From the NCBI GenBank assembly GCA_031262035.1, contig JAISIL010000172.1, positions 1-61,976 of the forward strand: a stretch of DNA of 61,976 nucleotides, written 5' to 3'. A program made the position numbers and the translations under genes. Origin of the DNA: Spirochaetaceae bacterium (lineage in GTDB: Bacteria; Spirochaetota; Spirochaetia; Treponematales; Breznakiellaceae). The notes below the pieces were generated by a model that did no database searches, had not been told where the DNA came from, and was given only the letters and a program-made list of their open reading frames with translations. Below, one piece after another: positions 15,387 to 35,752 of this stretch. Every line of letters starts with the position of its first letter. The stretch's first letter is position 1.

Positions 15387-15478
15387 TTAACCACGGATAA
15401 CACGGATAGGGCTAAAGCCCTACGCGGATATAATAATTAAAATTTTTATCCGCGTTCATCAGCGTTATCCGTGGTTAA
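15387..15478. repeat. Family C inverted-repeat element (CCACGGATAAC)
   Basis: Arms TTAACCACGGATAAC (15387-15401) and GTTATCCGTGGTTAA (15464-15478) enclose a smaller palindrome TAGGGCT-AA-AGCCCTA. Its right part encodes the last residues and stop of obgE. Related elements: 28096-28196 and 34858-34963. Confidence 0.9.
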
Positions 15479-16495
15479 CTTCACTATTTCTTCAGCAAGA
15501 ATATCCAATCCTTCACCGCTGAATACTGAAATTCCAAAAATCTTTTCTTCCGGAAGCGCTTTTTTCAGTTCTTCCAGCCTTTCTGCTGACGATGGGCTGA
15601 TTGAGTCCCCAAAATCCATCTTGGAACCGACAATAATTCGTTTTTTTTCGGCTAAATCGCTAGAAAAAGAGGCCAGTTCGTTTAATAAGACCGAAAAGGC
15701 CGTTAAATAATTGTTTTTACTCAGGTCTATCAGAAAAACAAGGGCTCTTGTTCGGGAAATATGCTTCAAAAAGCGAATTCCCAAGCCGGCTCCTGTTGAG
15801 GCACCCTCAATTAGGCCGGGGATGTCGGCTATCAGAATGTTTTTTGCGTCAAAATCATCGTTTTTATCGCTTGCACGGGCGCCATAGGTTAAAACACCCA
15901 GGTTTGGTATCTTGGTGGTGAAGGGATAGGGTGCAATTTTTGGCCTTGCACGGGTAAAACGGTCTAAAAGGCTGGACTTGCCTGCATTTGGAAAGCCAAC
16001 AAGGCCAATATCGGCAAGGAGTTGCAGTTCTACCCGAAGATGCCTTGCTTCCCCAGGCTTTCCGGGCAAGGCCTTTTTGGGTGACTGATTTACCGATGAC
16101 TTAAAGTGAATATTGCCCCAGCCGCCATTGCCGCCTTTTAAAAAGACCCAGCGTTCCGGGTTTTTACCAAAATCACGGAGAAGCTCACCTGAGTCTGCAT
16201 CTTTTAGAATAGTGCCCGGGGGAACAGGCACGACAAGGTCTTCGCCGTTTTTGCCGTAACGGGCACGGCCTTCGCCATCATGCCCATTCTCGGCCTTAAA
16301 CTTCTGCTTGTAACGAAGGTGCGAAAGGGTGCGCAGGTTTTCCCGAACCTCAAAGATAAGGTCGCCTCCCCTACCCCCATCGCCGCCTGAAGGCCCACCT
16401 TTTGGCACAAATTTTTCCCGATGAAAAGCAGCACAACCATTGCCGCCTGAACCTGAGGATACTTCTATTAAGGCTTCGTCTGCAAACTTCTGCAT
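15446..16495 (-). CDS. obgE: GTPase ObgE
   Basis: A 349-residue ribosome-associated GTPase. The glycine-rich Obg fold is at 1-155 (VSSGSGGNGCAAFHREKF, PSGGDGGRGGD), the G domain follows: GFPNAGKSS (G1), switch PFTT, DIPGLIEGA (G3), GSKMD (G4). The Obg C-terminal tail is replaced by LTTDNADERG encoded by the family C repeat. ATG 16495 lies 6 bp after TATAAT. Confidence 0.97.
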   Translation of the reverse strand: MQKFADEALIEVSSGSGGNGCAAFHREKFVPKGGPSGGDGGRGGDLIFEVRENLRTLSHLRYKQKFKAENGHDGEGRARYGKNGEDLVVPVPPGTILKDADSGELLRDFGKNPERWVFLKGGNGGWGNIHFKSSVNQSPKKALPGKPGEARHLRVELQLLADIGLVGFPNAGKSSLLDRFTRARPKIAPYPFTTKIPNLGVLTYGARASDKNDDFDAKNILIADIPGLIEGASTGAGLGIRFLKHISRTRALVFLIDLSKNNYLTAFSVLLNELASFSSDLAEKKRIIVGSKMDFGDSISPSSAERLEELKKALPEEKIFGISVFSGEGLDILAEEIVKLTTDNADERG

Positions 16496-28095: not shown

Positions 28096-28196
28096 AACCA
28101 CGAATAACACGAATGCCTAGCGGCACACGAATTATTAGTTAGTAATATATGATTATTCGTGTGGGAGCGTAGCGAACATTCGTGTAATTCGTGGTT
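28096..28196. repeat. Family C inverted-repeat element (CCACGAATAACACGAAT)
   Basis: Arms AACCACGAATAACACGAAT (28096-28114) and ATTCGTGTAATTCGTGGTT (28178-28196) with small inner hairpins such as TGCCTAGCGGCA. It separates htpG from the prepilin peptidase and contributes the GTG at 28191. Confidence 0.9.
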
Positions 28197-33799: not shown

Positions 33800-33901
33800 T
33801 AAACGAAATTTTGCTTCGCAAAACTTCGCTTATCACAAGATAGGCGCCATTAAAACGGCGCCTATCACAGGTGTTTCCGCCATTGAAACGGCGGAAACAC
33901 C
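33797..33901. repeat. Three successive hairpins after the flaA pair
   Basis: (1) 33797-33837, GTGATAA...TTTTGC-TTC-GCAAAA...TTATCAC. (2) 33839-33866, GATAGGCGCC-ATTAAAAC-GGCGCCTATC. (3) 33870-33901, GGTGTTTCCGCC-ATTGAAAC-GGCGGAAACACC. Hairpins 2 and 3 share an 8-base loop but have different arms. They probably terminate or stabilise the flaA mRNA. Confidence 0.85.
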
Positions 33902-33909
33902 CATATTTT

Positions 33910-34869
33910 ATGGATTATCAAGCAGAATTTCTATTAAATCGCCTCACAAAGCGTTTCAAACATCTCTCTAAATGGGCAAGGCGGACGAATGTTTGTGCGT
34001 TTCGGCTTTATGACCGTGATATTCCGGAATTTCCCCTTGTTCTTGATTACTATGATGGTTTTGTTGTGGGGGCACTGTATGCAAAAACAGATGCGGGGGC
34101 CACCGGGACGGTGGCCGTAGGGGCGGATAATTATCCGCCCCTACACACATATGTCCAAACCGTTTCCCAAGCCCTGAATGTTCTGCCTGAAAAGATTTAT
34201 ATTAAAACACGGCAAAAATTTTCGCATGGTAGCGCAGGGGAACAATATGAAAAACAAGCTGATGAAAAAAAGACAATTATAATAGAAGAAAATGGCCTTA
34301 AATTCAGGGTGAATTTGTCTGATTACCTGGATACGGGGCTTTTTTTGGAAAAACGGCTCTTGCGAAAACGGCTTTTTGATGAAGTAACGGGGATGCGGGT
34401 GCTGAATTTATTCTCTTATACCGGCGCTTTTTCCGTTTATGCCCTTGCCGGTGGGGCAATTAAAGTAGATTCCGTAGATATTTCCAATACCTACAATGCC
34501 TGGGCTGCCGAAAACATGCAGCTTAATCAATATACTCCCAATGCAGACAACCGTATAATCCGTGCCGATGTGCTGAAGTTTTTGGCTGAGGCAAAGCGGA
34601 AATACGAGATAATCATTTTAGACCCGCCTGCATTCTCAAACTCGAAAAAAATGGAGGGCACTCTTGACCTTAAACGGGATGCCGCTATGCTTATAGACCA
34701 TTGTTTAGGGCTTTTAACGCCGGGCGGGAAGGTATATTTTTGTTCGCAGGTAAAAACAACCACGGATTACGCAGATGGCACGCGGATAAAAGACATTACA
34801 AGGCAGGTTACGGATGAGGATTTTCGGGGTAAAAGGATGCAGGCGGTATATGAAATTAACTACGAATAG
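33910..34869 (+). CDS. RlmK/RlmI-type 23S rRNA methyltransferase with repeat inserts
   Basis: An S-adenosylmethionine-dependent enzyme like the RlmK half of RlmKL. N-terminus FLLNRLTKRFKHLSKWAR and RLYDRDIPEF; SAM site VLNLFSYTGAFSVYAL; catalytic IILDPPAFSNSK. ATG 33910 is chosen since the 13 residues before it come from the flaA hairpin. Three repeat-derived pieces lie inside: TVAVGADNYPPLHT (34117-34144), TTTDYADGTRIK (34757-34790) and the final NYE plus stop (34858-34869). Confidence 0.85.
   Translation: MDYQAEFLLNRLTKRFKHLSKWARRTNVCAFRLYDRDIPEFPLVLDYYDGFVVGALYAKTDAGATGTVAVGADNYPPLHTYVQTVSQALNVLPEKIYIKTRQKFSHGSAGEQYEKQADEKKTIIIEENGLKFRVNLSDYLDTGLFLEKRLLRKRLFDEVTGMRVLNLFSYTGAFSVYALAGGAIKVDSVDISNTYNAWAAENMQLNQYTPNADNRIIRADVLKFLAEAKRKYEIIILDPPAFSNSKKMEGTLDLKRDAAMLIDHCLGLLTPGGKVYFCSQVKTTTDYADGTRIKDITRQVTDEDFRGKRMQAVYEINYE
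34117..34144. repeat. Family A palindrome in frame inside the methyltransferase gene
   Basis: Perfect 28-bp palindrome GTAGGGGCGGATAA plus complement, identical to 17878-17905. A smaller hairpin GGCCACCG/CGGTGGCC (34098-34116) precedes it. The peptide is VGADNYPPL. Confidence 0.93.
34757..34790. repeat. Family C partial element in frame inside the methyltransferase gene
   Basis: ACCACGGATTACGCAGAT followed by GGCACGCGGATAAAA, matching the arm of the element at 15387-15478. It codes for TTTDYADGTRIK. Confidence 0.75.
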
Positions 34870-34963
34870 CACGAATACAACGGCCTTCGGCCTTATGTTA
34901 CACGAATGTCCAATGTCTAAAATTCGTGTAGCAACGAAGTTGCTATTCGTGTTATTCGTGGTT
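34858..34963. repeat. Family C element overlapping two genes
   Basis: Arms AACTACGAATAGCACGAAT (34858-34876) and ATTCGTGTTATTCGTGGTT (34945-34963), with inner hairpins AAGGCC-type (ACGGCCTTCGGCCTT) and TAGCAAC-GAA-GTTGCTA. The left arm gives the methyltransferase stop codon; the right arm encodes the hydrophobic core of the next gene's signal peptide. Confidence 0.92.
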
Positions 34964-35752
34964 TGTATTTCTAAACTACCGGCACAGGATACCAACACAA
35001 TTCGTATAATGTCCTACAATATGCAGATATTTGGTGTGTCCAAGATGAATAAGCCTGATGTGGTTGCTACTCTCCTTGATATTGTCGATGATGCTGATGT
35101 AATTGCCATTCAGGAGGTTCGTAGTGCCAGTCCTGCACCGGTGGAAGAATTTATGGCACGATTGCCTTTACATTATGATTATGTCCTGGGCCCACGGGAA
35201 GGCCGTTCGTCTTCTAAAGAACAGTTTTGGCTTATATATGATACCCGGAAAATTGCCCTTTTAGGCACTGAAAATTATGCCGACCCCGACGACGCCTTTG
35301 AACGAAGCCCCTTCGCTGTGCATCTTCGGTGCATAGGCGGGGAAAATGCTGAGGGCACCATGCCTTTTGATTTTATCATTGTGAATAATCACCTGAAACC
35401 GGGTGATGTCCATGCAGAAATTGCATTACTGCCTGCAATAGGGGGCTCTTTAACAGAGACATGGCAAGAGGCCGATGTAATTTACCTGGGCGATTTTAAC
35501 AGCGACGGCAACTATTACGATGAGGCCCACTTGGGTAACATCTTTCCCCAAGCCGCATACACAAGCATCATTGGGAATGAGGCCGATACCACTACGGCTT
35601 CCAGTAGCAACACCTACGACCGGATTATCATGAGCAATAGTGCAAAAGAAGATTGGACAGGGAATTGGGGTGTTGAGATAATAGCCCAACCGGGGGTCAG
35701 CGACCATTACCCGGTTTGGGCGGAGTTTTATACTGACAGAGACAGGGATTAG
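34913..35752 (+). CDS. Exported endonuclease/exonuclease/phosphatase-family protein
   Basis: DNase I-like fold: IRIMSYNMQIFG, VIAIQEVRS, FIIVNNHLKPGD, VIYLGDFNSDG and VSDHYPVWAEF supply the metal and catalytic residues. Substrate could be nucleic acid or a phosphoester. ATG 34913 gives a classical signal peptide (MSKIRVATKLLFVLFVVC, then ISKLPAQD), whose hydrophobic core is the translated arm of a family C repeat. The ATGs upstream (34814, 34850) lie within the methyltransferase gene. No Shine-Dalgarno is obvious. Confidence 0.85.
   Translation: MSKIRVATKLLFVLFVVCISKLPAQDTNTIRIMSYNMQIFGVSKMNKPDVVATLLDIVDDADVIAIQEVRSASPAPVEEFMARLPLHYDYVLGPREGRSSSKEQFWLIYDTRKIALLGTENYADPDDAFERSPFAVHLRCIGGENAEGTMPFDFIIVNNHLKPGDVHAEIALLPAIGGSLTETWQEADVIYLGDFNSDGNYYDEAHLGNIFPQAAYTSIIGNEADTTTASSSNTYDRIIMSNSAKEDWTGNWGVEIIAQPGVSDHYPVWAEFYTDRDRD

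Follow-up and report, generated by a model that had tools for sequence, protein, structure and literature searches.

A palindromic repeat copy as the source of a predicted export signal in a DNase I-like nuclease of a spirochaete

Can a copy of a short repeat provide the export signal of a conserved enzyme? This question is raised by a locus in the draft genome of a spirochaete related to the termite-gut Treponema (3.07 Mb in 215 contigs, 99% complete). The window, which means the whole stretch of DNA analysed here, comprises 61,976 nucleotides. A preliminary description had proposed that one arm of a repeat is translated as the hydrophobic core of a secretion signal and that the other end of the same repeat provides the stop codon of the gene upstream. 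The repeat copy in question (34858-34963, no strand assigned) is a MITE-like imperfect palindrome of 106 bp and one of about 190 copies in the genome; a second copy of the family lies in the window at 28096-28196 (likewise without strand). The focal copy fills exactly the gap between two genes, ending the upstream one and giving the leader of the downstream one.

The repeat copy and its two neighbouring genes

The upstream gene (33871-34869, plus strand) encodes an RlmK-like 23S rRNA methyltransferase. Its conserved part ends with GKRMQAVYEI, after which the left arm of the element, AACTACGAATAGCACGAAT (34858-34876, plus strand), supplies the final three codons (NYE) and the stop codon TAG (34867-34869, plus strand), so that the proposed donation of the stop is borne out. 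Most methyltransferase orthologues end within about 10 residues of the point where the element starts. The left arm matches the genome-wide arm at 17 of 19 positions and is followed by a GC hairpin module with inner box (34877-34907, plus strand), which is present in other copies too (e.g. L087:17478), and by the short spacer GTCCAATGTCTAAA. The right module, GCAACGAAGTTGC, is rare, with three copies in the sampled half of the genome; in the nuclease frame it reads ATKLL and links the basic IRVATK to LFVLFVV. The right arm, ATTCGTGTTATTCGTGGTT (34945-34963, plus strand), is identical to the genome-wide arm at all 19 positions.

Read from the ATG at 34913, the frame runs as ATG TCT AAA ATT CGT GTA GCA ACG AAG TTG CTA TTC GTG TTA TTC GTG GTT to the end of the element and continues with TGT ATT TCT AAA CTA CCG GCA CAG GAT before the nuclease domain. 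It translates as MSKIRVATKLLFVLFVV (34913-34963, plus strand), followed by CISKLPAQD (34964-34990, plus strand) and an intact DNase I-type domain. Coordinates and translations of the preliminary description were exact, and the right arm, read in frame as (L)FVLFVV, does form the hydrophobic core. The contribution of the repeat is even larger than proposed, as the start codon at 34913, the n-region with its basic residues and the h-region are all element DNA. The segment LLFVLFVVCI (10 residues) has a mean hydropathy of 3.66, which is above 98.6% of 581 predicted N-termini, i.e. in the top 1.4%. AlphaFold2, run with the orthologue alignment, places a separate helix at residues 23-41, preceded by a disordered stretch; the confidently predicted fold begins at residue 50. 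Charge precedes hydrophobicity, as in a signal peptide, and by hydropathy and predicted helix the leader is a predicted export signal. The c-region, which is not element DNA, may be cleaved between LPA and QD, where L at -3 is presumably tolerated rather than favoured, or may hold an atypical lipobox, FVVC; we take V at -1 of the sole cysteine not to belong to a normal lipobox. As a speculation, this cysteine, directly after the VV that closes the element, might be a remnant of an ancestral lipobox.

The DNase I / Exo_endo_phos domain (34991-35749, plus strand) matches Exo_endo_phos with 6.8e-7, and vertebrate DNase I both by sequence with 1.6e-23 (PDB phmmer) and by fold with 1e-23 (Foldseek). 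It contains no stops and keeps all conserved catalytic residues (N57, E89, H181, D215, N217, D285 and H286 in A1 numbering); fold and catalytic residues are those of a DNase I-type EEP nuclease. Many methanogenic archaea (Methanolobus, Methanosarcina and others; L182-L224) have relatives of the nuclease with about 28-38% identity, which suggests lateral transfer or a wide distribution.

The start at 34913 was confirmed as being in frame and inside the element, but it is not the sole possible one, since the open frame extends upstream to 34850 and 34814. An alternative in-frame ATG (34850-34852, plus strand) lies just outside the element, preceded by AGGA at a distance of 12 nt and by an imperfect AGGCGG at 3 nt. 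From there both arms would be coding, with a tail beginning LTTNSTNTTAFGLMLHECPMSKIRVATKLLFVLFVV after MK. This ATG is located at the foot of a strong predicted stem, while 34913 sits in the apical loop of a predicted hairpin without a Shine-Dalgarno-like sequence; a strong Shine-Dalgarno sequence is found at neither position. Translation probably starts at either 34850 or 34913, and the repeat-made core is independent of this choice because both use the same hydrophobic stretch. The sole downstream ATG before the domain motif is 35009 (residue 54 in 34850 numbering). It has no Shine-Dalgarno-like sequence, and a start there would trim the conserved beginning of the first beta-strand (residues 50-61), so that the downstream start named earlier as a possible refutation is unlikely at this site.

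A repeat family at the ends of genes

Throughout the 3.07-Mb genome, 186 forward and 186 reverse matches to the arm were found with up to three mismatches, against 0 and 1 for a reversed control pattern. As RNA, the region 34830-34975 has a folding energy of -54.8 kcal/mol, with z = -7.25 relative to dinucleotide-shuffled sequences. On these two grounds the repeat is not due to chance. Copies have a common plan of four boxes, AACCACGAATnnCACGAAT, GC hairpin, ACACGAAT, spacer, ATTCGTGT, GC hairpin and ATTCGTGnnATTCGTGGTT, in which the hairpin modules are exchangeable between copies. With lengths of 61-117 bp (about 100 bp), multiple copies, inverted terminal arms and no transposase or other gene inside, the family has the features of MITE-like elements. 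Target-site duplications gave no clear signal: the flanks had 15 matches of 2 nt against 7.8 expected, with about six copies sharing one co-amplified flank, and no signal was seen at 3 nt or more. Searches of an open-access library brought up no account of this family in Treponema.

A census was performed on half of the genome (1.53 Mb in 121 stretches, L075-L114 and L243-L322). With gene starts taken from a simple hexamer model and therefore approximate, 88 of the 120 complete copies are intergenic, 32 touch a gene end and none is located inside a gene, against about 90 expected at random; in-frame insertion within ORFs was thus not observed among them. The copies hug stop codons: 68 of 104 overlap the stop of a gene reading towards the element or begin at most 10 bp from it. 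The stop of the upstream gene lies at position 12 of the element in 15 of the 120, among them the focal copy, the C-terminus being NHE (14 copies) or NYE (focal copy). In 19 further copies the upstream stop is completed by the A or AA with which the element begins, and four genes run deeper into it. Complete copies cluster at stop codons as if targeting 3′ ends, or as if tolerated only there, and they may act as terminators or as hairpins that stabilise mRNA.

Donation of stop codons by the repeat is common, whereas donation of a leader is convincing for the focal copy alone among the 120. Several other copies are open into the following gene (e.g. L082:15021, L296:4843 and L102:9921) and were rejected as leader donors, each downstream gene having its own start nearby. 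The copy at L296:4843-4927 carries the same right module as the focal one, and its hydrophobic frame (TKLLFVSFVVINRRIS) is open straight into a lipoprotein gene with its own MKKILVGVAAIAVLLFVGC start.

Some copies are embedded in a longer repeat of about 165 bp with shared flanks, taactttatagt before and gttttttatgatttcaaagtta after the element (L078:14156, L081:10140, L085:11318, L096:6521, L100:12126, L107:14556 and others), and many assembly contigs end there. Sister families with the altered boxes AACCACGAAGGACACAAAG and AGCCACGAACGACACGAAC were seen at L087:10880, L101:9763 and L112:7124, and the box AACCACGAACCACACGAAC in the relatives G007, G013 and G047, which suggests repeat families co-diverging across the spirochaete family. 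Within the window, an element of a related family, with the sequence AACCACGGATAACACGGAT (15389-15476, no strand assigned), gives the C-terminus of Obg (gene at 15446-16495, minus strand), whose last residues, TTDNADERG, and stop codon come from this family.

Origin of the leader

The nuclease is encoded in 20 of 99 relatives and in 36 of 200 genomes of the family. Of the orthologues, 40 distinct ones have a readable N-terminus, and each of these shows a hydrophobic 10-mer (hydropathy at least 2.0) upstream of the domain; some look like lipoproteins (e.g. FESCNS, LSCNSA). None of these 40 leaders is made of this repeat and all differ in sequence, so that the objection of the same leader existing elsewhere without the repeat does not apply, and a leader common to the orthologues was rejected by the N-terminal comparison. 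The sole nearby CCACGAA match among the orthologue loci (L175) falls in an upstream gene. Because all 40 orthologues have unrelated hydrophobic leaders, export of the nuclease is probably ancestral, and the signal would have been replaced here rather than invented.

The neighbourhood in relatives is informative for the junction. In the MAG Treponema sp. Po218_bin6 (G026) the methyltransferase is likewise followed by the nuclease, whose GTG overlaps the methyltransferase stop in a 4-nt GTGA; its leader is a normal MKGTFLLTGRVLALLLLLPAALLPATLRADA and the junction is free of the element. The methyltransferase has rpmE and rho nearby in eight relatives, six of which carry a different lipoprotein gene directly after it. 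The gene directly after the methyltransferase in L118, L119, L120, L121, L123, L126 and L127 encodes a different conserved lipoprotein (AYL..LA.AF....FLLAQGE).

We consider it likely that the repeat copy located where the methyltransferase gene ends and the nuclease gene begins represents a signal-peptide replacement in an already secreted gene. A short non-coding palindromic repeat of mobile type would have come to lie between the two genes, either by inserting at the expense of the old leader or by recombination between copies. Its left arm now ends the methyltransferase with NYE and stop, and its right half is in frame with the nuclease and encodes basic residues followed by LLFVLFVV. It could take the place of the ancestral start and of the hydrophobic part of the leader because the arm, when read in the nuclease frame, by coincidence resembles a finished signal-peptide core. 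The ancestral leader would have been lost when the element arrived, with the old c-region ISKLPAQD left behind. The protein would be expressed, the leader would work in the Sec pathway and the nuclease would be exported as before. Since a search for an empty-site allele from a close strain found none, the replacement is deduced from relatives at about 55% identity.

Other explanations account for parts of these data. Instead of the element entering an existing junction, recombination between two element copies may have joined the methyltransferase to a nuclease from elsewhere, and the leader would still be repeat-derived. About 190 copies are available as recombination sites, and the nuclease may have entered the slot held by the other lipoprotein gene in the six relatives with rpmE and rho nearby; yet G026 has the two genes adjacent without any element, and we regard this route as unlikely, if with an appreciable chance. 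It is doubtful that the leader is non-functional, i.e. that the nuclease lost its export signal, the element frame is open by chance and the protein has a downstream start or its gene is in decay. An open frame alone is indeed unremarkable, with 112 of 408 copy-frames being free of stops from end to end, and a coding-potential model puts the start at 35009. This model is biased against repeat hexamers, though, and the properties of 35009 given above, the intact domain, the order of charge and hydrophobicity and the hydrophobic leaders of all orthologues speak against it.

A misassembly of the short-read draft at a repeat is very improbable. Many contigs do end in the longer repeat copies, but the junction is backed on both sides by independent gene order (methyltransferase and nuclease in G026, methyltransferase near rpmE and rho in others), which argues against such an error, as do the focal spacer, absent from the other copies listed, and the fit of frame and ISKLPAQD c-region to a real gene. 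Beyond the single replacement favoured here, the repeat could be seen as a portable gene-boundary cassette, with a stop in one arm and a basic-plus-hydrophobic leader in the other, used repeatedly in related spirochaetes. We give little credence to this extension; if true, a single insertion could terminate one gene and simultaneously redirect the product of the following one to secretion.

Comparison with known systems

REP and BIME elements with their RAYT (Y1) transposases are many small imperfect palindromes by gene ends, and the family described here resembles them in number, size and adjacency to gene ends. It differs in being a four-box palindrome of about 100 bp with exchangeable hairpin modules. 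Moreover, a search for Y1_Tnp (RAYT) proteins gave 0 matches in the draft genome, while positive control genomes gave matches, and a REP/RAYT origin was rejected on this ground. With secreted nucleases of the DNase I and EEP families the enzyme has fold, catalytic residues and an N-terminal export signal, here a predicted one, in common; unlike in these, the leader is made of repeat DNA.

A natural replacement of this kind would be a clean case in which repeat DNA took over as the signal peptide of a conserved enzyme, and both the orthologues and a related junction can be compared with it. The case speaks for the idea that the constraints on signal peptides are loose enough for an in-frame hairpin arm to do the job, and one repeat copy shapes both neighbouring proteins. 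Annotators should be warned that NHE, TTNNTN, FVLFVV and similar termini of this genome are repeat-derived.

The best-known coding palindromes are the Rickettsia palindromic elements (RPE), as summarized from Ogata 2000 and 2002 in PMC10969869 and PMC2229807. By these summaries, a palindromic repeat is translated in frame within conserved proteins in both cases, but RPE often lie inside ORFs, whereas here coding use is confined to gene ends (0 of 120 copies inside genes). The closest parallel is Yersinia YPO1552, in whose predicted signal peptide (residues 1-41) the stretch 1-30 is encoded by the 168-bp repeat RU-2/YPAL (Delihas 2007, PMC2759123; review PMC2229807); the homologues in Salmonella, Vibrio and Burkholderia carry signal sequences that have no relation to this repeat (PMC2759123). 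The nuclease corresponds to this case in that a short palindromic repeat encodes the n- and h-region of the predicted signal peptide and the leaders of homologues are unrelated. It departs from YPO1552 in the unrelated repeat sequence and the other phylum, in the protein being identifiable as an enzyme of DNase I type whose active site is intact, and in the focal copy also ending the upstream gene. Repeat-derived signal peptides thus have a precedent in YPO1552 and coding palindromes are known from Rickettsia; the present case differs in the repeat family, the recognisable enzyme and the double effect of one copy on two genes.
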